A stretch of DNA of 64,000 bases. Origin: Acidobacteriota bacterium. GTDB lineage: Bacteria > Acidobacteriota > Vicinamibacteria > Vicinamibacterales > UBA2999. A program made the position numbers and the translations under genes. Shown here piece after piece: positions 413 to 12,250 of this stretch (the stretch's first letter is position 1; each line of letters starts with the position of its first letter). The stretch spans positions 1 through 64,000 of the forward strand of contig VFZN01000015.1 in the NCBI GenBank assembly GCA_016871195.1, written 5' to 3'. The notes under the pieces were generated by a model. The model did no database searches and was not told the origin of the DNA. It saw nothing but the letters and a program-made list of their open reading frames with translations.

Positions 413-523
413 CGCACAGGTCATGCGGCCCGGCGGCGCATGTCGCCCCGGGCCTGCGTGAGGCCGGGGCCGGCCGTGGCTCCGCTGGTCAGGGTTTCTG
501 CAACGAACGTCGAAGGAGCGGGC

Positions 524-3508
524 ATGCTGCGGGCGCGGGTGATGACAGTGGTGGTCGCGGCGCTGGTCGCAGTGCAGGCCGGCGGCGGGGCACAGGGTCC
601 GGTGAGCGGCGCGCAGGAGGCGGCGTGGTCGCCCGACGGGCGTCGGCTCGTGGTGTCGTTTCTCGATCGGCTGTGGGCGATGGACAGCGACGGGCGGCGC
701 GCGGCACCGCTGACGGCTGCTGACGGTGGCCAGGTGGAACGCGACCCGAGCTACGCGCCCGACGGACAGTGGCTGGCGTATGCGGTGCAGGCAGACGCGG
801 GCTTCGACATCATGGTGCTGCCGGTGGCCGGGGCGGCTGCGAGTGCCGGCTCCGGAGGGGGTGCTGCGCGGGCCGCACAGGCAGGCGCCGCGGTGCGGGT
901 GACGTCGATGCCAGGCGACGAGCGCTGGCCCAGCTTCACGCGAGACGGACGACTCGTGTTTGCGCATCGGCCGGCCCCTCCAGAGGGGCAGCGTGCGAGT
1001 GCCGCCAACGGATGGGATTTGTATGTCGTGGCGCGCGCCGCCGATGGCATGTGGCAGGCTCCGGTGGCGCTGACGCGCACGGCTGACAGCGAAACCTATC
1101 CGCGCGTCTCGCCCGACGGGAATCGCGTGGCGTTCATCTCTGAGCGCGCGTCTGAAGACGATGTGGATGTGTGGTGGATGCCGGTGCCGCCGGTGGTCGA
1201 CGAGACCACATCGAGGGCCGCACGGCAGACACGTGTCGTGCAGGCACGCGGTATCGAGTCGCATGTGAGCTGGGCGCCCGATGGGGGGCGCGTGGCCTAC
1301 TATGCCGTGCGCGATGGTGTCGGGTCGGTGTGGGTGGCGACGGTCGAGCCGCCGCGGGCCGAGGGTGAGGCGGTTCAGGAGCCGCGCCCGCGCCCGGTGG
1401 CGCCGCCGGTGCTGGTGTCACGCCGTGGAGGTGCACCGCAGTGGTCGCCCGATGGCAGCACGCTGCTGATGAGTGGCCTTCCCGATCCGCAGCCGGTGTA
1501 CAACGGCAATCCGCAGCGTAGCGATGCCGAGGCGGTGCCGCTGTTTGCCATGAACACGGCGTTTCAGCTGTGGCGCGTCCCTGCGCCGCGTCCCGTGCAT
1601 GAGCAGGGCGGCGAGCTAATACCGGCCATGGTGGCGACGCCGGCGATGTATGCGCGCACGTTCGATCGCGTGTGGCAGACGCTGCGCGATCTCTACTATT
1701 CTACCGGCGATGGCCTGCAAGCGTGGACACGCGCACGCGAGACCTATCGGACACGGGCCGGTGCGGCTCCGTCACTCGCGGCGTTTGAAGCCGTGGTCGA
1801 CGAGATGGTCGCCGAGCAGCCGCTGATCAAGCCCGTGGTGACGTCGAATGGCGGAATGGTGGTGTCGGGGCATCCCCTCGCGTCGGAGGCCGGACGCATC
1901 GCCTTCGAGAAGGGCGGCAACATCGTCGACGCGATGGTGGCTGTGTCGTTTGCACTCGGGGTCGTTGAGCCCGAGGCCTCGGGGGTGGGCGGTGATGGGG
2001 CCGCGGTGCTCTATCTGCAGGGCATGACACAGCCCACCGTCGTCGAATACAAGGACATGACTCCGTCGCATGCGACGCCAGACAACCCGGTCATCGTCAA
2101 GGACGGGCGCATCGTGGCGGATGGCCCCGCGGCCGCGAACATTCCTGGTGTCGTGGCCGGGCTCGAGCATCTGTATCGGCACTATGGCAGCGGCAAGGTG
2201 GCGTGGGCCGATCTGGTCGCGCCGGCGATCAGGCTCGCTGATGAAGGTTTCATCCTGGATGAGTCGCTGCCGAGTTCCATTGCCGAGGGGCGACGCTATC
2301 TCGAAAAGTGGCCCGAGGCTGCGAAGATCTATCTGCCGAACGGCAAGGTGCCGCAGCCGGGCGAGCGGTTCTTCAACAAGGACTATGCGAAGACGCTGCG
2401 AACCATTCAGCGCGGTGGCGCCGATGCGTTCTATCGCGGTGAAATTGCACGGGCGATTGCCGCCGACATGGCCGAGCAGGGCGGCATCATGACGTATGCC
2501 GACCTGGCGCAGTATCGGGCGATCGAGCGGCAGCCGATACGCGGGCGCTATCGTGGGCACACCTTGTATGCCGGCGGACCGCCAGTGTCGACCGGCATCC
2601 AGCTGTTCGAGTCGCTGCATGTGCTCGAGCAGTTCACGCCGCGCGTGGGGGCGCGGGCCACGACCGATGCTGACTATTTTCACTACCTGATTGAATCGTG
2701 GAAGGTGCGGGATGCGCTGCGGCGCGTGGCGGATCCCGAACGATGGCCGGTCGAGTACGCCGAGCACCTCACACCCGAGCACGCGCGTGCGCTGTTTGAG
2801 AAGATCGACCCGGTGCGCGCGTCGACATGGCCGCGGCAGAGTGCGGACGAGCCGGTGGGGGCCATCCCTTCTGCGCCCACGGTGATTCCCCGCCTGGGCA
2901 CGGGCACCACGTCGTTTGCCGTGGCTGATGCCGAGGGCAACATGATTGCGGTCACGCAGACGCTCAGCACGTGGGGCGGCAACTTCTATGTGTCGAAGGG
3001 GCTGGGCTTCCTCTACAACAACCACCTGCGCTCGAACCGCCTGACGCCCGGGGCCTATGGCAGCCTGCAGCCGCTGCAGCGCGCGAGCACGGCCAGTGTG
3101 CCGACGCTGGTGTTCGAACGGCGCGCCGACGGACGCGAGGTGCCGACGCTGGCGGTGGGGTGTGCGGGCAATGCGTGGATTCCGGTGTCGGTCTACGGCA
3201 TCATCACCGGTGTCATCGACGGCGGGCTCGGCGCACAGCGTGCGATCGAGGCGGCGCGCTTCCTGCCCGGCCGCGACCCGGCTGATCCGAAAGACGAAGG
3301 CGAACGCGTGGAAATTGAAGATCGGTTTCCGCGGCCCCTGCTCGATGCGCTGACGACGCGCGGGCATCTCTTCCAGAAAATCGGGCGCAAGGGCGAAGTG
3401 CGCTATGGCTATGCGGCGGCGATCACCGTCGATGTCGATCGGGGCATCGTCGAAGGCGGAGCCGAGCCGCGGCGGTCGCATGCGGCCGTGGCGGCACCGC
3501 GGTGGTGA
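524..3508 (+). CDS. Exported TolB/tricorn-like propeller fused to a divergent gamma-glutamyltranspeptidase domain
   Basis: I chose the ATG at 524 (994 aa) because GGAG lies just upstream and a signal-like hydrophobic segment follows; the frame is open from 440. Residues about 20-350 carry at least five SPDG-type propeller repeats (WSPDGRR, YAPDGQWLAY, VSPDGNRVAF, WAPDGGRVAY, WSPDGSTLL). Residues 376-436 resemble the small helical domain that follows the propeller in tricorn-type S41 proteases. From about residue 438 a gamma-glutamyltranspeptidase fold begins (HPLASEAG, KGGNIVDAMVAVSFALG). The autoprocessing and nucleophile threonine is probably T795 in GTGTTSFAVAD, so an Ntn hydrolase is likely. 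The residues that hold glutamate in E. coli GGT look changed (K for R114, H for Q430, S for D433, AGN for PGG), so gamma-glutamyl specificity is doubtful. Probably periplasmic. Confidence 0.82.
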   Translation: MLRARVMTVVVAALVAVQAGGGAQGPVSGAQEAAWSPDGRRLVVSFLDRLWAMDSDGRRAAPLTAADGGQVERDPSYAPDGQWLAYAVQADAGFDIMVLPVAGAAASAGSGGGAARAAQAGAAVRVTSMPGDERWPSFTRDGRLVFAHRPAPPEGQRASAANGWDLYVVARAADGMWQAPVALTRTADSETYPRVSPDGNRVAFISERASEDDVDVWWMPVPPVVDETTSRAARQTRVVQARGIESHVSWAPDGGRVAYYAVRDGVGSVWVATVEPPRAEGEAVQEPRPRPVAPPVLVSRRGGAPQWSPDGSTLLMSGLPDPQPVYNGNPQRSDAEAVPLFAMNTAFQLWRVPAPRPVHEQGGELIPAMVATPAMYARTFDRVWQTLRDLYYSTGDGLQAWTRARETYRTRAGAAPSLAAFEAVVDEMVAEQPLIKPVVTSNGGMVVSGHPLASEAGRIAFEKGGNIVDAMVAVSFALGVVEPEASGVGGDGAAVLYLQGMTQPTVVEYKDMTPSHATPDNPVIVKDGRIVADGPAAANIPGVVAGLEHLYRHYGSGKVAWADLVAPAIRLADEGFILDESLPSSIAEGRRYLEKWPEAAKIYLPNGKVPQPGERFFNKDYAKTLRTIQRGGADAFYRGEIARAIAADMAEQGGIMTYADLAQYRAIERQPIRGRYRGHTLYAGGPPVSTGIQLFESLHVLEQFTPRVGARATTDADYFHYLIESWKVRDALRRVADPERWPVEYAEHLTPEHARALFEKIDPVRASTWPRQSADEPVGAIPSAPTVIPRLGTGTTSFAVADAEGNMIAVTQTLSTWGGNFYVSKGLGFLYNNHLRSNRLTPGAYGSLQPLQRASTASVPTLVFERRADGREVPTLAVGCAGNAWIPVSVYGIITGVIDGGLGAQRAIEAARFLPGRDPADPKDEGERVEIEDRFPRPLLDALTTRGHLFQKIGRKGEVRYGYAAAITVDVDRGIVEGGAEPRRSHAAVAAPRW

Positions 3509-3593: not shown

Positions 3594-4061
3594 ATGGCAC
3601 GGATCGAAGTGGGCAAGAAGGCGCCGGCGTTTTCGCTGAAGGATCAGCACGGCACCGTACACAAGCTGTCGGCCTATGCCGGGCGTCCGGTGGTGCTGTA
3701 TTTCTATCCGAAGGACGACACGAGCGGCTGCACCAAGGAAGCGTGTGCGTTCGAGGAGAGCCTGCCCGACTTCGGGAAGAGCGAGGCGGTGGTGCTGGGC
3801 GTGTCGATTCTGGACGAGGCCAGCAAGGCGAAGTTTGCGAAGAAGTATGGCCTCACGTTTCCCCTGCTGGCCGATGCCGACCATGCGGTCTGCGAGAAGT
3901 ACGGCGTGTGGGTCGAGAAGTCGATGTATGGCCGGAAGTACATGGGCATTGCGCGCGTGACCTACCTCATCGGTGGCGACGGCAAGGTCGCGCGTCGCTG
4001 GGACGATGTGAAGGTGGAGGGGCACGCGGACGAGGTGCTGGCGGCGGTGCGTGCGATCTGA
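3594..4061 (+). CDS. bcp: Thioredoxin-dependent thiol peroxidase (Bcp/PrxQ)
   Basis: A 155-residue peroxiredoxin of the Bcp/PrxQ family, which reduces hydrogen peroxide and organic hydroperoxides in the cytoplasm at the expense of thioredoxin. The active-site segment YPKDDTSGCTKEAC shows the peroxidatic cysteine C46 and, five residues later, the resolving cysteine C51 typical of PrxQ. Length and the N-terminal VGKKAPAFSL match the family. The start ATG follows the purine-rich AAAGGACGTGAGTA. The next gene begins inside its 3' end (GTG at 4051, 11-base overlap), so the two are probably co-translated, linking peroxide defence with the odd metal-transport protein downstream. Confidence 0.95.
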   Translation: MARIEVGKKAPAFSLKDQHGTVHKLSAYAGRPVVLYFYPKDDTSGCTKEACAFEESLPDFGKSEAVVLGVSILDEASKAKFAKKYGLTFPLLADADHAVCEKYGVWVEKSMYGRKYMGIARVTYLIGGDGKVARRWDDVKVEGHADEVLAAVRAI

Positions 4062-5298
4062 ACTGCGCCTGCACGTGCAGGGCATGGACTGCGCGGACGA
4101 AGCCGCGCTGATTCGTCATGTGCTGCAGGTGCCCGGCATTCTCGACCTCAACTTTGACCTGGTCGGCCGTCGGGTCGACGTGCAGTTTGATGCATCGATC
4201 ACTTCGGCCGACACGATTCTCGGAAAAGTGCAGGGCACCGGGCTCGGCGCGCATTCGCATGCGCCGGGCGAGCATGTGCATGACGACCACGGCGTGCCGT
4301 CGGGCGCATCGCACGGGCTGACGCTGCGCTTCATCGTGGCCAGTGCGGTGCTGATGCTGGCGGGCTGGGCGGTGGAGGCTGCGACGGCCGATACGTGGAC
4401 CGAGGCGCTCATTGGCCACGCGCACACTGATGTGACGGGCGGCGTGCCAGCGGCAGCGGTTGCGGGTCAGGATCGATGGGCGCTGGCCGCGACGGGTGCG
4501 TATGGCCTCGCGATGCTGTCGGGGCTTGTGCCCGTGCTGCCGCGGGCGCTGGCGGCATTGCGGCATCAGCGGCTCGACATGCACGTGCTGGTGTGTGTGT
4601 CAGCGGTGGGTGCGGCGGTGGTGGGGCAATGGGCCGAGGGCGCATCGGTGGCGACGCTCTTTGGCGTGGCGCACCTGATGGAAGCGTGGAGCATCGAGCA
4701 TGCGCGCGTCGCCGTCAGCCGCGCGGTGGGACATGAGCCCGGGTGGGACGGCGGTGCGGGCGAGGCCGTGGCCGGGCGCGTCGAGCGTTACATCGAGCGC
4801 TTTGCGAGCGTTTACACGCCGGTCGTCACGGGGCTCGCGGTCGTCGTGGCCGTGGGGCCGCCGCTCATGGATGGTGCGTGGACGGTGTGGTTCTATCGCG
4901 CACTGATCTTCCTGGTGCTGGCGTGTCCGTGTGCGCTGGTGATTTCGACGCCGGTGACGGTCGTGGCGGCGGTGACTTCGGCGGTGGGGCGGGGCGTGCT
5001 CTTCCGTGGTGGCCTCGCTCTCGAGCGCGCGGCCGATGATGCGGCGTCGGCGATTGCGCGGGGCGATGTGGTACTGACGCAGCACGCGCGCGAGGATGCG
5101 CCGGTGTTTGCGGGTGCGCATGCGCGGCGGGCGCTGGGTGTGATTCGGCAGAATGTGGCGCTGGCGATGCTGACGAAGCTGGCGTTTCTGGTGTCGGCAG
5201 TGCTGGGCGCGGCGCCGTTGTGGCTGGCGATGGTGGCCGACACGGGGGCGACGGTGGCGGTGACGCTGAACAGCCTGCGGCTGCTGCGCGCGCGGTGA
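4051..5298 (+). CDS. P1B-type heavy-metal ATPase-like protein lacking the actuator and catalytic domains
   Basis: The protein (415 aa) is clearly derived from a heavy-metal P1B ATPase but is about half normal length. It has an N-terminal HMA domain with GMDCADE (C14), a His-rich linker (HSHAPGEHVHDDHG), and four predicted membrane segments up to VATLFGVAHLMEAWS. It then runs directly into RYIERFASVYTPVV, which normally follows the actuator domain. The metal-binding CPC motif (C292-P293-C294) is intact. After GRGVLFRGGLALERA the sequence jumps to ARGDVVLTQ...VIRQNVALAML, which normally follows GDGxND. So the TGE actuator loop, the DKTGT phosphorylation domain and the nucleotide-binding domain are all missing, with no frameshift or stop. 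It cannot hydrolyse ATP; it may be a metal-binding membrane scaffold, channel or sensor. The GTG start overlaps bcp. Confidence 0.85.
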   Translation: MRSELRLHVQGMDCADEAALIRHVLQVPGILDLNFDLVGRRVDVQFDASITSADTILGKVQGTGLGAHSHAPGEHVHDDHGVPSGASHGLTLRFIVASAVLMLAGWAVEAATADTWTEALIGHAHTDVTGGVPAAAVAGQDRWALAATGAYGLAMLSGLVPVLPRALAALRHQRLDMHVLVCVSAVGAAVVGQWAEGASVATLFGVAHLMEAWSIEHARVAVSRAVGHEPGWDGGAGEAVAGRVERYIERFASVYTPVVTGLAVVVAVGPPLMDGAWTVWFYRALIFLVLACPCALVISTPVTVVAAVTSAVGRGVLFRGGLALERAADDAASAIARGDVVLTQHAREDAPVFAGAHARRALGVIRQNVALAMLTKLAFLVSAVLGAAPLWLAMVADTGATVAVTLNSLRLLRAR

Positions 5299-5628: not shown

Positions 5629-6255
5629 TTACTGCTGCGGCGGCGGGGGCGGCGTGGCGCGCCGTTCGCGACGCTTGCCGGCCCGTTCGCGCATCTGCTG
5701 GGCGCGCTGCTGCATGCGGGCCTGACGCTGCGCACGCATCTGCGTCAGCTGGGCCTGCTGTTCACCCGTCAGCACCGACAGGGCCTCGTGATAGACGCGC
5801 GAGCGCAGCACGGCGGCATCGGCTTCCACCACCGCGAGATCGGCGGCGGCCTGACGGACCGCCGGTTCATTGAGGGCCGTGCCGGTGACGGCGGCGTCGA
5901 GCGCCTGGCGCGCCACGTGCACACGCTGGCCGGTGGTCTGGGCTTCGGCCTGACGGGCCTGGGCGATGCCGCGCAGCTGTTCCTTCTGGGCGTCGCTCAG
6001 ATTGAGGGCGCGGGCTTCGCGCAGGAACTCACCGAGCGGGCCACCAGGACCTCCGGGGCCTATCGAGCCGCGGGGACCGCCGCGGCGCATCTGACCGCGC
6101 GGACCCATCTGGGCGCGGGCACCGGGGCCGCCCTGGACGGGCGTGGCGCGACGCACGGCCGGTGCATCCTGAGCAGACAGCGTCGCGGGCACGGTGGCCG
6201 CGGCGGCAGCGGTGAGAAAAGCAAAGACGAGAGCAGAACGAGTGACTGTGTGCAT
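5629..6255 (-). CDS. Spy/CpxP/ZraP-like periplasmic LTXXQ protein
   Basis: A 208-residue exported protein. The signal peptide (MHTVTRSALVFAFLTAAAAA, ending near LSAQ) fixes the start at the ATG at 6255; upstream extension of the frame only overlaps the divergent regulator. After a Gly/Pro/Arg-rich linker (GPRG, GGPRG, GPGGPGG) comes an all-helical region with two LTXXQ-type motifs (LNLSDAQKEQL, LTGEQQAQL), the signature of the Spy/CpxP/ZraP family of periplasmic chaperones or metal-binding stress proteins. The tail is very basic and ends in PPPPPQQ. It is divergent from a response regulator/histidine kinase pair, the same partnership as CpxP with CpxAR and ZraP with ZraSR, so it is probably both target and feedback modulator of that system. 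Which stress is sensed is unknown. Confidence 0.85.
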   Translation of the reverse strand: MHTVTRSALVFAFLTAAAAATVPATLSAQDAPAVRRATPVQGGPGARAQMGPRGQMRRGGPRGSIGPGGPGGPLGEFLREARALNLSDAQKEQLRGIAQARQAEAQTTGQRVHVARQALDAAVTGTALNEPAVRQAAADLAVVEADAAVLRSRVYHEALSVLTGEQQAQLTQMRAQRQARMQQRAQQMRERAGKRRERRATPPPPPQQ

Positions 6256-6420: not shown

Positions 6421-7146
6421 ATGCCGCACGCCCTCATCGTTGAAGACGACCCGAACATCCGCACCCTGCTCGAACTGCATCTGCGCCTCGAAGGCCTCGA
6501 GTTCACATCGGTGGCCGATGGCCATGCGGCCCTCACTGCGCTCGGGCAGACGCGCTTCGATCTGGTGCTGCTCGATCTGATGCTGCCCGGCGTCGACGGC
6601 ATCAGCGTGTGCCGGGCCATGCGGCGCGGCGGGCCGAACGCCGACACGCCCGTGCTGATGCTGACGGCGCGGCGCGAGGAAAGCGACAAGGTGCTCGGGC
6701 TGGAAAGTGGCGCCGATGATTACCTGGCCAAGCCGTTTGGCCTGCGCGAGCTGGTCGCGCGCGTGCGGGCACTGCTGCGCCGGCCGCGGCTGACCGCCGC
6801 GTCGGGATTCGAGCGCGGGCCCGGGCAGGTATCGGCGAGCGAGCGTCCCGTGGCCGTGCACGGACTCGAGATCGATCCGGCGCGACGGCGCGTGCGCGTC
6901 AGGGGCGCCGAGGTCGACCTCACCGCACAGGAATTCCGCCTGCTGCATCTGCTGGCCTCGCATACCGGCATCGTCTTCAGCCGCGAAGCGCTGCTGGCGC
7001 GGGTGTGGCCCGACCAGACGTATGTGACGTCGCGCTCGGTCGACACCCTCGTCAAGCGCCTGCGTCGGCGCATCGAAGCATCGCCCAACGAGCCGCAGGT
7101 GATTCTCACCGTGTGGGGCAGCGGGTATAAGTGTGCCGATGTCTGA
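6421..7146 (+). CDS. OmpR-family response regulator
   Basis: A 241-residue two-component response regulator. The receiver domain (residues 1-115) has the acidic pair D9/D10, the phosphoacceptor D52 in LVLLDLMLPG, and K104 in LAKPF. A linker leads to a winged-helix DNA-binding domain (about 143-240) with TAQEFRLLHLLASHTG and RSVDTLVKRLRRRIE, ending WGSGYKC as in OmpR/PhoB proteins. Its stop overlaps the start of the histidine kinase by 8 bases, so the pair is translationally coupled. The likely target is the divergent LTXXQ gene and its own operon. Confidence 0.95.
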   Translation: MPHALIVEDDPNIRTLLELHLRLEGLEFTSVADGHAALTALGQTRFDLVLLDLMLPGVDGISVCRAMRRGGPNADTPVLMLTARREESDKVLGLESGADDYLAKPFGLRELVARVRALLRRPRLTAASGFERGPGQVSASERPVAVHGLEIDPARRRVRVRGAEVDLTAQEFRLLHLLASHTGIVFSREALLARVWPDQTYVTSRSVDTLVKRLRRRIEASPNEPQVILTVWGSGYKCADV

Positions 7147-8755
7147 GCGTCGCTGGTTCCGCAGCCTCTACTGGCGCATCGGTCTGGGCTTCATCGCCCT
7201 CGTGGCCGTGCTGCTGCTGATGCAGGCCGCATCGTTCGTATGGATTGCCGCAGAAACCGAGGGCGGGCAGCCCATGCGTGCTGCGCAGGATGCGGCCGAT
7301 CTCATTGCGGCCGACCTCGAGACTGCGCTGGCCAGCGACCCCGCACTCGATCTGGCCGCCGAGGCGCGACAGCGCATCGACGCCGCCTCGCGGCCGGCCT
7401 TCGTGGTGCTGCTGAACCGTGTGGTCGTCGGACCCGAGGGCGTCGAACCGCCTCCAGGGCTGCAGCGACTCATGGATGTGATGATGGCTCGCGGCGGGCG
7501 TGACATCCGTGAGCCGGGTGGCCCGTTGCGCGAACGGTTCCCCCGCCTCAATCAACGGCTGCGGCAGCGCATGCTGGAGCAGGGGCGTCCACCCGACCTG
7601 GAAGGGCCGCTGCCTGATCCGTTCGGCCCGGACGGTGGCGTTGGTCCACCGGGACTCTCTGGCCCAGGGCCGGGCGGCGGACCACTCGGCGCCTTGCGTC
7701 GACGCACCGCGGTGACGCCCGTGCTGGCACCCACCGGTCGCCGCGTGGCCTTCGTGGTGGTGGGCCCGAACGTGGCCTATCGGCAGACGGCCGGTGCCCT
7801 GTGGCCCTGGCTCGCGCTCGGGGGCGCGGTGCTGCTGCTCGGAGGCACCGCGGTGGCGGCGCTGCTAGTGTTCCGCCCGGCGCAGGCGCAACTGCGTGCG
7901 CTCGAGGCGGCGGCCGGTCGGCTCGGTGACGGCGATCTGCGCGCACGGGCGCCAGAGGAAGGCACCGACGAGGTGGCCTCCGTGGCCCGTGCCTTCAACC
8001 GCATGGCGGGCGACCTCGAAACGCGCCAGCAGCAGCTGACCGACATTGACCGCGCGCGGCGTCAGCTGCTCGCTGATGTCTCGCACGAACTGATGACTCC
8101 GCTCACCGCGATTCGCGGCTACGCGGAAACGCTGGGCCTGCCCGGTTTTGGACCGGCCACGGCCGAGGGCCAGCGTGCGGTGCAGGTCATACAGGACGAA
8201 GGCGCCCGCATCGAGCGTCTGGTGGGCGACCTGCTCGACCTGTCACGATACGAAGCCGGTGGCGTGAGCCTGCACCTAGACGAGGTCGAGGTCGCCGTTC
8301 TGCTGTCGCGCGTCGTCGCACGCCACGAGCAGCAGGCACGTGACCAGGGCATTGCCCTGCGCGTCGACTTGCCGGACCCACAGATCACGGTCGAGGCGGA
8401 TCCGCACCGACTGGAACAGGCGCTGCAGAATCTGGCGTCGAACGCCCTTCGCTACACGCGTCGCGGCGGCCACATCACGTTGCATGCGGTGTCAGGAACG
8501 ACCGACCAGGCCCGCCCCTGCATCCGGTTCTCGGTGACCGACGATGGGGTGGGGATTGCGCCGGAGCACGTGCCTCACGTGTTTGAACGCTTCTACAAGG
8601 CCGATCCCTCACGCGCGATGACCGGGTCGGGTCTGGGCCTGTCGATCGTGAAGGCCATTGCGGAGCGGCATGGGGGCTGCGTATCGGTGCGCAGCACTCC
8701 GAGTGTGGACACCACGTTCGAACTCGAAGTGCCACAGATGGCCGAGCTGCGCTGA
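7139..8755 (+). CDS. Sensor histidine kinase with HAMP domain
   Basis: The partner kinase of the preceding regulator (538 aa from the ATG at 7139; an in-frame GTG at 7133 is also possible). A first membrane helix (GLGFIALVAVLLLMQAASFVWI) is followed by a periplasmic sensor region of about 180 residues that includes a Pro/Gly-rich stretch (PDPFGPDGGVGPPG, GPGPGGGP), then a second helix and a HAMP domain. The H-box is LLADVSHELMTPLTAIRGYA with the phosphorylated H316. N-box (LQNLASNALRY), G1 (DDGVGIAP), F-box (FERFYKADPS) and G2 (GSGLGLSIVKA) are all intact. The Gly/Pro-rich sensor segment resembles the linker of the nearby LTXXQ protein. Confidence 0.95.
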   Translation: MSERRWFRSLYWRIGLGFIALVAVLLLMQAASFVWIAAETEGGQPMRAAQDAADLIAADLETALASDPALDLAAEARQRIDAASRPAFVVLLNRVVVGPEGVEPPPGLQRLMDVMMARGGRDIREPGGPLRERFPRLNQRLRQRMLEQGRPPDLEGPLPDPFGPDGGVGPPGLSGPGPGGGPLGALRRRTAVTPVLAPTGRRVAFVVVGPNVAYRQTAGALWPWLALGGAVLLLGGTAVAALLVFRPAQAQLRALEAAAGRLGDGDLRARAPEEGTDEVASVARAFNRMAGDLETRQQQLTDIDRARRQLLADVSHELMTPLTAIRGYAETLGLPGFGPATAEGQRAVQVIQDEGARIERLVGDLLDLSRYEAGGVSLHLDEVEVAVLLSRVVARHEQQARDQGIALRVDLPDPQITVEADPHRLEQALQNLASNALRYTRRGGHITLHAVSGTTDQARPCIRFSVTDDGVGIAPEHVPHVFERFYKADPSRAMTGSGLGLSIVKAIAERHGGCVSVRSTPSVDTTFELEVPQMAELR

Positions 8756-8960: not shown

Positions 8961-10028
8961 TCATCTGCTGATCGGGCCAGATGAACAGTGGTGGCGCCGT
9001 GATCCCGGTAATGCCTGGTGCGTCGCACATGCGGGCGTCGGCAGTATGGCGTCCGCTGCGGCCGAGTCTGGCCACTGTGGCAGGGGATACGCCACATAGC
9101 CGGCATGGGCCAGTCGCGCCTGGAACAGCGACACCTGCGCCGCGACCCCGCTGATTCGGATGGCGAGGCGCCCTGCGATGTAGGCCTGGGACACGACAAG
9201 ACCCCACAGGCCCGCCGACGCCCCCGGGGCCATCAGCGCATACAGCCCCAGCCACGCCGCCAGGGTCAGCAGCTGCAGCAGCACCAGTGTCATCACCGCA
9301 CCGCGTGCCTGTGCCGCGAAGCGTGCCCCGGCCACCATCGCCCCGATCATGCTGCGCCGGTCTTCCACCACCGCACGCACCCGCGCATAGTCGACCACCA
9401 CATTGAGCAGCAGCACCGGCACGGCAAACACGACCGCCGCTCCCAGCCACCACGCAAACGCCACGCGCTCGCTGGTGACGTCGTGCACGGCCGCCTGATA
9501 CACGTCACCGAACCACCACGGATGCAGCTGCGTGAAGAGCACCCAGTAGCCCGCGCCCGTGATGAGGGCGAGGCGCACCAGCCGCCCCGCATGCCGCGCA
9601 CATGCCCAGAGGAACCGCACGCGGCCCATGGGCTGCTGCCGCGCCACCCGCTCGATGACGCCACCCATCACGCAGACCTGCAGCAGAAGCCACACCACCA
9701 CGACGACCCCGAGGGCCGGCGGCAGTGCGCGGGCATCGGTCATGCGACTCAGATTGTCGAGCACGGCCGCCACGCCGATGATGCGCGGGCTGAAGGTCGC
9801 CCCCAGTCCCGAGGCCTGCGCCAGAAACTCGTTCCACCAGTCGAGATTGACGCCGACCGCCGCCGTCTCGGCCATCAGGCTGTCGCCGAGGTGCGTGGCC
9901 AGCGCGCCACGCAGCAGCCACGCCGCCGGAAGGGCCACCGCCAGCGTCGACGCCCACAACACAAGCACCAGTGCCGGGGCCTGCCGCACCCGCTGCCATC
10001 CGTTCAGATAGGCCTCACGCCAAATCAT
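8961..10028 (-). CDS. Multi-pass integral membrane protein, unknown function
   Basis: A 355-residue membrane protein I do not recognise. The ATG at 10028 (MIWREAYLNGWQRVRQAP) was chosen because the frame upstream runs into the preceding gene. There are about six hydrophobic segments (ALVLVLWASTLAVALPAAWL, LGVVVVVWLLLQVCVMGG, a segment near LALITGAGYWVLF, WLGAAVVFAVPVLLLNVVV, MTLVLLQLLTLAAWLGLYAL). A conserved-looking VVDYARVRAVVEDRRS loop sits between the fourth and fifth. It starts 14 bases after the stop of the M1 peptidase, so the two form an operon. The last 50 or so residues look unnatural and the true C-terminus may lie near PLPQWPD. Confidence 0.7.
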   Translation of the reverse strand: MIWREAYLNGWQRVRQAPALVLVLWASTLAVALPAAWLLRGALATHLGDSLMAETAAVGVNLDWWNEFLAQASGLGATFSPRIIGVAAVLDNLSRMTDARALPPALGVVVVVWLLLQVCVMGGVIERVARQQPMGRVRFLWACARHAGRLVRLALITGAGYWVLFTQLHPWWFGDVYQAAVHDVTSERVAFAWWLGAAVVFAVPVLLLNVVVDYARVRAVVEDRRSMIGAMVAGARFAAQARGAVMTLVLLQLLTLAAWLGLYALMAPGASAGLWGLVVSQAYIAGRLAIRISGVAAQVSLFQARLAHAGYVAYPLPQWPDSAAADAILPTPACATHQALPGSRRHHCSSGPISR

Positions 10029-10042
10029 CGTCGTCACCACGG

Positions 10043-12250
10043 TTAGACCAGCACGGCCATCTGTATCAGCAGGTCCTGCAGCCAGACCATCCACTGTCGC
10101 GCCCAGTGCGTGGCCGCCGCGTCGCGGCGAGGTGCGAGCGACCGGCTGTTGTTGGTGCGGGCGACGTCGAGCAGCAGCACGCGGTCGGCATCAACCTCAG
10201 CTGAGACCGCGCGCGAGGGCCGCTCGTACTGGAACAGCTGCCATGCTCCCCGTCCATCCCAGGGCTCGCGCACCTCGGTGCCATCCTCGAAGCGTACGCG
10301 CACATCGACGGGGAACACGCCATCCCCTAGGCGGCGCACCACCACGGTGGTGCGATACGTGTCGGAGGTGCGGTCGATCGCCTCAGGCACATCGGACAGC
10401 CGCGCCGCGCGCACGCCCTGCGTGTGCACCTGCGTGCTCGTCAGGTGTTCGACCGCATAGTCGAAGACCGCCGTCGTGCGGTAGACCTGATGGATGAACC
10501 ACTCGAGCCGTTGGCCCGTGCCTGCATCGAGCGCGGCGAAGAAGTCGGCCGGGCGCGGATGCCGATAGCGCCACTGCGCAAAGTACTGCTGCAGCGCCGG
10601 CTGTAGTCGTTCCCAGCCGAGGTGCCGCTCGAGCGTGTGCAGCCACAACGCGGTCTTGAAATACGTTGTGGCCACGTGCGTCCCGGGCCAGTAGCGGAAG
10701 GACGGCGTGGCCTGTACATCACCACGCCCCGCACGGCGATAGCCGTCGAGGCCGTTGTCATCGGTGGCACGCGACAGGGGCACATCACGCAGCTGCCACG
10801 GCACAAAGTCGCCGAAGAAGCGCTCGACGCGGTAGTCGGGCTGATGCGTCAGCGAACCGACCCGCGCTTCCGAGAAGGTATTCAGTCCTTCGTCCATCCA
10901 CGCATCGTCAGTTTCGTGCGATGACACGAGGCCGAACCAGAACTGGTGCCCGGCTTCATGCACGGTGACGCCTTCGGGTTCCGACGAGCCGCGCGGCGCC
11001 AGCCAGCGCGTGCCGGCCGTGAAGAGCGTCGGATATTCCATGCCGTCGAAGCCCGAACCCCACGCCGGATCAATGATGGTGATCTGCGAATAGGGATAGG
11101 CGCCGTACCACTCGCCGTAATAGCGCAGGGCCGCTGCCGTGGCGCTGAAGTGCCGATCTTCCTGCCCCGCATGCTCGGGCTGCAGCAGCAGGCGCATCTC
11201 GACGGCTGGCAGCGTGGGGTGCGTGAACGTGCGGCGGTGCTCGACATAGTGCGGACTGGTCGTCCAGGCGAAGTCGTGCACGCCCTCCTGCGCGTAGCGG
11301 TGCGTGGTGGTGCCGCGTCCATCGGGTGTGCGCGAGACTTCGGTGCCCGTGGCACCGACGACCCAGCGGTCCGGCACAGTGAGCCGCACGTCATAACGGC
11401 CGAAGTCGGCGGCAAATTCGGTATTGGCAAAAAACTGCCGGGCCTCCCAGCCGGCCTCCCCGAATCGCCCGAGCCTGGGAAACCAGTGCGCGATGAGATA
11501 GTCGCGCCCGCGCACCCCGGTGCGCGCGATCGTGCGGGGTACTTGTGCCGTCCACTCGACATCGAGCCGCAGCGTCTCGCTAGGGGCCACGGCCGCGGGC
11601 AGGTCGACGGCCGCGAGTGTGCGGTCATCCGCGTTCTGATCATCGGGCTGAATAAAGCGCAGGCCGCCGAGCAGATCGGGCCCCGCACTGCCATCGGGGT
11701 TCACGATCCGCAGCGCCGTGATCTGCTGCCAGCCAGCATCACGGGGGTCGAGTTCGTCGGAGGTGTCACTGCCGCCGAGTCTCGACTGGCGCAGCCATGA
11801 CGAGCCGGTGTCGCTGAAGGCGTTCCAGTAAAGATGCAGGCGCAGCGAGTAGGCGGGCACCTGCCCGGGATTGCTGAAGGTGATGCGCGCACGCCCGGTC
11901 AGGCGATGCGCCGCAGGGTCGAGGGTGGCATCGATGTCGTAGCTGGCCACCGGCGGTGGAAACCCGGCGGATGCACCGGTGCGCTCATCCGTGCGCCGCG
12001 GTGCCTGCGGAGACGGGGAGGATGTGGCCGCGGACCTGGGCATCGCGGAGAACCCGTCAGGCGCCGCCGCGCGGTCACTGCTGGCCTGTGTCGACACGGA
12101 CACCGCTGGAGCCGAGGGCCGGGTGTCTGCTGTGACCGGCGCGGACTGCGATGCGCTGGGCGTGCGCGCCAGACCGGCCAGCGACACCACGGCCAGGGCC
12201 ATCATGAGTGAGCGCAGGTGAATGGGCGACGCAGGCACGGCAGCCCTCAT
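10043..12250 (-). CDS. Exported M1-family zinc metallopeptidase
   Basis: A 735-residue protein with an N-terminal signal peptide (RSLMMALAVVSLAGLA) and a Ser/Pro/Ala-rich linker to about residue 110. The peptidase domain carries H431-E432-A-G-H435 with the third zinc ligand E454 in MDEGLNTFSE, exactly the HEXXH-X18-E pattern of the M1 (aminopeptidase N-like) family; an aromatic-rich substrate-pocket region precedes it. M1 enzymes cut N-terminal residues from peptides; a periplasmic or cell-surface role in peptide use is likely. The usual GXMEN exopeptidase motif appears as GFDGMEYPTLF. The start is uncertain: the frame opens at 12355, but ATG 12250 or the internal ATGs near 12208 fit a signal peptide better. 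Confidence 0.88.
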   Translation of the reverse strand: MRAAVPASPIHLRSLMMALAVVSLAGLARTPSASQSAPVTADTRPSAPAVSVSTQASSDRAAAPDGFSAMPRSAATSSPSPQAPRRTDERTGASAGFPPPVASYDIDATLDPAAHRLTGRARITFSNPGQVPAYSLRLHLYWNAFSDTGSSWLRQSRLGGSDTSDELDPRDAGWQQITALRIVNPDGSAGPDLLGGLRFIQPDDQNADDRTLAAVDLPAAVAPSETLRLDVEWTAQVPRTIARTGVRGRDYLIAHWFPRLGRFGEAGWEARQFFANTEFAADFGRYDVRLTVPDRWVVGATGTEVSRTPDGRGTTTHRYAQEGVHDFAWTTSPHYVEHRRTFTHPTLPAVEMRLLLQPEHAGQEDRHFSATAAALRYYGEWYGAYPYSQITIIDPAWGSGFDGMEYPTLFTAGTRWLAPRGSSEPEGVTVHEAGHQFWFGLVSSHETDDAWMDEGLNTFSEARVGSLTHQPDYRVERFFGDFVPWQLRDVPLSRATDDNGLDGYRRAGRGDVQATPSFRYWPGTHVATTYFKTALWLHTLERHLGWERLQPALQQYFAQWRYRHPRPADFFAALDAGTGQRLEWFIHQVYRTTAVFDYAVEHLTSTQVHTQGVRAARLSDVPEAIDRTSDTYRTTVVVRRLGDGVFPVDVRVRFEDGTEVREPWDGRGAWQLFQYERPSRAVSAEVDADRVLLLDVARTNNSRSLAPRRDAAATHWARQWMVWLQDLLIQMAVLV

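Follow-up and report, generated by a model that had tools for sequence, protein, structure and literature searches.

What does a metal-transporting ATPase become once the domains that spend ATP are gone and those that carry the metal remain? The question is raised by an open reading frame on the forward strand (4051..5298) of a 64,000-nucleotide stretch of Acidobacteriota DNA, hereafter the window. Its product, a motorless P1B-2-like membrane protein of 415 amino acids named LLP here, begins at a GTG (4051) and is read without interruption to a stop codon at 5296-5298. The initial annotation described a P1B protein that had lost its two catalytic loops by clean in-frame deletions and had kept its HMA domain, a His-rich linker, the membrane domain and the CPC motif. 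Both parts of this description are confirmed, the losses by the reading frame, the Pfam matches and the lengths of the two joins, and the retained elements by the analyses set out below.

Domain architecture of LLP

The N-terminal heavy-metal-binding domain of P1B-2 ATPases is present in LLP as an HMA domain (PF00403; 31.8 bits, above the cut-off) at residues 7-64 (4069..4242; all segments of LLP are given on the forward strand), with the motif MDCADE (DCxxE) identified by alignment. It is joined to the first helix by the His-rich linker (4243..4302), delimited from the sequence and part of which is modelled by AF2 with low confidence; His counts show the linker to be real in genera g1, g2 and g7, and weaker in g21. 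The loop between the first two helices, MA and MB (4384..4470, from the AF2 helix limits and the alignment), also carries His in g1, g2 and g7, and would face the periplasm if LLP shares the topology of ZntA. Among the orthologues described below, the HMA domain is absent only from that of genome G025 (L053:7973-9049), which directly follows a PrxQ gene. The domain is therefore dispensable in one lineage.

The membrane motifs of the P1B-2 group, CPC, N(x)7K and DxG(x)7N, are all found, as C292-P-C294, N368 (within IRQN) with K376, and D397-T-G399 with N407, and are invariant in 19/19 proteins. The cytoplasmic domains are not. The Pfam match to E1-E2_ATPase (PF00122) is limited to the tail of the profile (110-178 of 181), a P or N domain (PF00702) has no Pfam match in LLP, and NCBIfam models of the ZntA type cover the protein as three separate stretches. 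Judged by its sequence, LLP is a descendant of the P1B-2 (ZntA type) pumps and is not itself a P1B ATPase, because two defining domains were tested for and are absent. ATP-driven metal transport by LLP is accordingly predicted, from the missing domains, to be impossible.

The missing loops have been replaced by short connectors. Join 1 (4708..4782), measured with the pattern RAR...ERxIERF, is a connector of 25 residues where pumps have the actuator domain; it spans 23-25 amino acids in all 19 proteins against 118 in L027, the only canonical relative measurable by this pattern. Join 2 (5026..5142), measured with the pattern GGxxLE...IRQN, is a 39-residue connector without DKTGT that replaces the P and N domains, for which the canonical relatives measured have 264-265 amino acids. 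Its length is 39 amino acids in the window's genus and 57-66 in the other genera, where it likely includes a remnant (APALAAADVGV...) that resembles the tail of the P domain. Trimming of this remnant thus seems to have continued past the founding loss, and to have gone further in the window's genus. Neither the TGE motif nor the DKTG phosphorylation site occurs in any of the 19 proteins (0/19 for each, the window protein included), and the loop losses are old and family-wide.

Distribution, phylogeny and selection

A search for orthologues covered 98 relatives; both loops are missing, with both joins in common, from proteins of 18 separately assembled genomes among them, in five genera of one Acidobacteriota family, making 19 genomes with that of the window. 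These orthologues are 48-68% identical to the window protein (BLASTP) and, counted from the HMA start, 405-437 amino acids long in 18/19 proteins, that of G025 being shorter through loss of its HMA domain. Against the canonical P1B ATPases they form a single clade (UFBoot 100) and have a single origin; the gene was probably gained once. Their reading frames contain no internal stops, and dN/dS over ten pairs (Nei-Gojobori) lies between 0.06 and 0.24, the larger values being rough and belonging to pairs whose dS is close to 1. The LLP family is under purifying selection. The initial annotation had held the losses to be unlike random decay, a claim that the absence of any further such genome, together with relaxed selection, would have undone; the 18 orthologues and the dN/dS values uphold it.

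Wider searches of the class (193 genomes) and of the phylum (396 genomes, evenly drawn) yielded no further members of the family. A match from the Ignavibacteria (L039) was rejected as a member, being a canonical ATPase of 737 amino acids. An ancestral full-length ATPase was sought at the matching site in sister genera, but in genomes that lack the LLP gene no ATPase stands beside PrxQ or GGT, and no donor copy emerged.

A separate case of reduction is found in G188, a genome from another family of the order, where a P1B copy (L089:9242-10726) just downstream of a FUR-family regulator gene lacks most of its A domain as well as its N domain. A full-length copy is also present in that genome and is 76-89% identical to the reduced one over the parts that match. 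The reduced copy was rejected as a member of the LLP family, since it retains DKTG, is a singleton accompanied by that full-length copy, and is independent. This recent event demonstrates independent origins for in-frame reductions of this kind and, as a singleton, is uninformative on function.

The metal pathway

The closest solved relative of LLP by sequence is ZntA (4umv; profile E-value 2.4e-66), and the closest fold matches are also ZntA structures (4umw and 4umv), at low TM-scores of 0.44-0.47 on the query. AF2 modelled LLP at a mean pLDDT of 81.7 and a pTM of 0.78, least confidently in the linker and first loop. In ZntA, the inlet funnel is formed by E184, E214 and D348 and the gate by M187 and F210; the metal site consists of C392, C394 and D714, with E202 acting in release and K693 as the built-in counterion (PMC6305203; PMC8880997). 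Alignment to ZntA maps a complete metal path across the membrane of LLP. The funnel positions are occupied by His178 (4582..4584), His208 (4672..4674) and Glu249 (4795..4797), and the gate by V181 and F204. The metal site is represented by the CPC motif (C292-P-C294; 4924..4932) and Asp397 (5239..5241), the release residue by Glu196 (4636..4638) and the counterion by Lys376 (5176..5178). Position 178 is His in 19/19 proteins, most canonical relatives having Asn or His there, while the invariant His208 is mostly Gln in those relatives.

All ten of these pathway residues are invariant in 19/19 proteins, compared with 105/276 core positions overall (hypergeometric 5e-5). Part of this invariance may reflect an inherited structural need, because canonical pumps for the most part conserve these residues too. 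By these assignments, LLP has kept the residues that matter for moving metal, including those for release and for the counterion, and has lost those that matter for spending ATP.

Genomic neighbourhood

The LLP gene is found in a recurrent order of transketolase, GGT/tricorn-propeller fusion, PrxQ and LLP gene, the transketolase label being a reading of the neighbouring open reading frame without a family search. The fusion gene (440..3508, + strand) lies upstream of the LLP gene in 17/19 loci. It is unusual in its own right, as it joins a complete gamma-glutamyltranspeptidase (GGT) in one open reading frame to a PD40 beta-propeller and a Tricorn_C1-like piece; about 20 genomes of the family encode homologues of it. 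The PrxQ/BCP-type thiol peroxidase (3594..4061, + strand) is in the locus in 14/19 genomes. On the other side lie a protein of the LTXXQ (CpxP/ZraP-like) type (5629..6255, - strand), near the LLP gene in many loci, and a response regulator (6421-7146) with a histidine kinase (7133-8755; together 6421..8755, + strand), near it in most. A 377-residue open reading frame at 8961-10094 has no Pfam match; G032, G037 and G040 likewise carry a homologue of it close to the locus.

No neighbouring gene is universal across the 19 loci. The initial annotation had proposed translational coupling to the peroxiredoxin and closeness to a ZraP-like two-component system. These proposals are less well supported. 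For the former, the overlap is exact in the window, where the GTG at 4051 lies within an 11-nucleotide overlap with PrxQ, whose stop is at 4059-4061; elsewhere the spacing varies, and in G035 and genus g21 the gene has no PrxQ next to it. The latter holds for 14/19 loci, in which LTXXQ, the response regulator and/or the histidine kinase lie near the gene at varying spacing, a count limited by contig ends in G035 and G042. It fails in G032 (100% complete), G037 and G040, which keep the LLP gene with no two-component genes nearby. A dedicated sensor partnership is thus not required, and linkage to the kinase/regulator pair is not obligate.

Co-occurrence with zinc importers

Zinc importers were compared across 43 genomes of the family, 19 with the LLP gene and 24 without it, the status of G002 and G038 being uncertain as the locus was not found in their assemblies. 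ZIP importers (PF02535, above cut-off) are encoded in 5/19 genomes with the LLP gene and in 23/24 without it (Fisher p=1.9e-6, ancestry ignored). When only genomes at least 90% complete are counted, the figures are 4/15 and 13/13, and for ZIP or ZnuA they are 7/19 and 23/24. Neither importer is found in 12/19 LLP genomes, that of the window included, whereas G002, whose GGT lies at a contig end, is the only genome of the other group to lack both. Sub-threshold ZIP-like matches are present in G025 and G036. Five losses of ZIP can be placed on the gene tree, every one of them inside the LLP clade. The anti-correlation is nevertheless correlational and confounded by shared ancestry, because the LLP gene is likely to have been gained a single time. 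Most genomes of the LLP clade also encode a divergent Nramp-like transporter, which could be an alternative replacement for ZIP.

As an observation on these genomes in general, several near-complete ones (G000 and most of genus g2) lack importers of both the ZnuA and ZIP types, and many of them have the divergent Nramp-like protein.

Possible functions of LLP

The reading favoured here is that LLP allows Zn2+ to permeate independently of ATP, probably inward, and we assign it a probability of about 0.45. It is preferred because the pathway is invariant and because of the pattern of co-occurrence with ZIP. Under this proposal, an ancestral P1B-2 pump would have permanently lost its motor, comprising the actuator, phosphorylation and nucleotide-binding domains, and kept its pathway for Zn2+ (or a similar divalent metal) and usually its HMA domain. 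The metal would bind at CPC/Asp397 and cross by the former pump pathway, driven by its own gradient and the membrane potential, which favours entry in a bacterium. On the cytoplasmic side, the HMA domain and His-rich linker would accept or buffer it. The architecture, the selection and the conserved pathway are observed, whereas that any metal crosses LLP, that it is zinc and that it moves inward are inferences; the only, indirect pointer to the last is that 14/19 genomes with the LLP gene lack ZIP. Several points weigh against permeation: the pathway residues of ZntA evolved for export, the gating of the pumps comes from the domains that were lost, a path without gating might leak and be toxic, and the Nramp-like transporter could have taken the place of ZIP. 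The further step, that an ATP-driven zinc exporter became a passive channel or importer for zinc when its whole motor was deleted, and that it took over from ZIP-type uptake in this Acidobacteriota lineage, is offered only tentatively.

The initial annotation had suggested an ATP-independent metal-binding membrane protein and left channel, sensor and metallochaperone side by side. A retained and selected protein that is predicted to be unable to use ATP agrees with the first part, and it is in preferring permeation that the present account departs from the second. As a membrane metallochaperone, LLP would serve a canonical P1B pump, or else an acceptor in the periplasm, as an accessory subunit or as a protein delivering or buffering metal. 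The HMA domain and His-rich segments are metal-binding, canonical P-type ATPases coexist in its own genome (C29, C7 and C12), and the invariant W213, an Arg in most canonical relatives, could be a contact; this role is nonetheless less likely, given that the G025 orthologue has no HMA domain, that no canonical ATPase adjoins the LLP gene in the loci examined, and that a complete translocation pathway exceeds the needs of a chaperone. Sensor pseudoenzymes commonly arise by loss of the motor while the site is retained, and LLP might likewise bind metal without transporting it and signal to the LTXXQ protein, response regulator and kinase, or to PrxQ. The proximity of LTXXQ or two-component genes in 14/19 genomes speaks for such a membrane sensor or regulator, which we consider a little less likely still in view of the three genomes without them nearby, the variable spacing elsewhere, and the release residue E196 and counterion K376, which are conserved no less strictly than the binding site and which a pure sensor would not need.

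Two further explanations were considered. A split pump, with A and P/N domains supplied in trans by other proteins, has nothing direct in its favour. A PF00702 search does find HAD proteins outside the ATPases of the same genome. These make no motor, since no actuator domain accompanies them: the PF00122 search of that genome returned three full-length P-type ATPases and the LLP remnant, and no stand-alone actuator domain, which leaves this arrangement very improbable. A pump gene in decay, or an error of assembly, is less credible still. Singleton in-frame loop losses do occur, as in G188, but pseudogene and misassembly are refuted for the LLP family by its recurrence in 19 genomes as one clade at 48-68% identity, with no internal stops and with selection that is not relaxed (dN/dS 0.06-0.24).

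Comparison with known systems

The carriage of ions by the membrane part of a P-type ATPase alone is usually studied by means of toxins or engineered mutants, and the open-licence literature searched yielded no described natural P1B family with the pathway but no motor. A selected family that has kept the pathway and discarded the motor makes the evolution of a channel from a pump directly testable in a small protein of 415 amino acids. LLP could also be an unrecognised route of zinc uptake in a large, poorly cultivated bacterial group. It is a caution, too, that automatic annotation may label LLP-like proteins 'metal-transporting ATPase' despite their having no ability to hydrolyse ATP.

With the P1B-2 pump ZntA (4umv/4umw), LLP shares the HMA domain, the membrane domain, the CPC motif, the equivalents of D714, K693 and E202, and the positions of the inlet funnel. 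It differs in lacking the actuator, DKTGT and the nucleotide-binding domain, and in the replacement of the funnel residues E184 and E214 by invariant His; unlike ZntA, it is predicted to be unable to run the Post-Albers cycle. The ZIP importers (PF02535), which are anti-correlated with LLP in the family, are a possible functional counterpart in providing ATP-independent entry of divalent metal, although they are unrelated in sequence and have neither HMA nor CPC. In KdpFABC, a P-type membrane domain shares the ion conduit with a channel subunit (PMC8385062) and so likewise lies in an ion path; KdpB, however, has a full motor, and the complex belongs to a different family and carries potassium instead of metal. 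The nearest idea to LLP is human TMEM94, which has a P-type ATPase fold and no detected ATPase activity (PMC12134183). Like LLP, it is related to the P-type ATPases and seems not to be a pump driven by ATP (PMC12134183); unlike LLP, it is eukaryotic, is not of the P1B group, and keeps A-, P- and N-like cytoplasmic domains.
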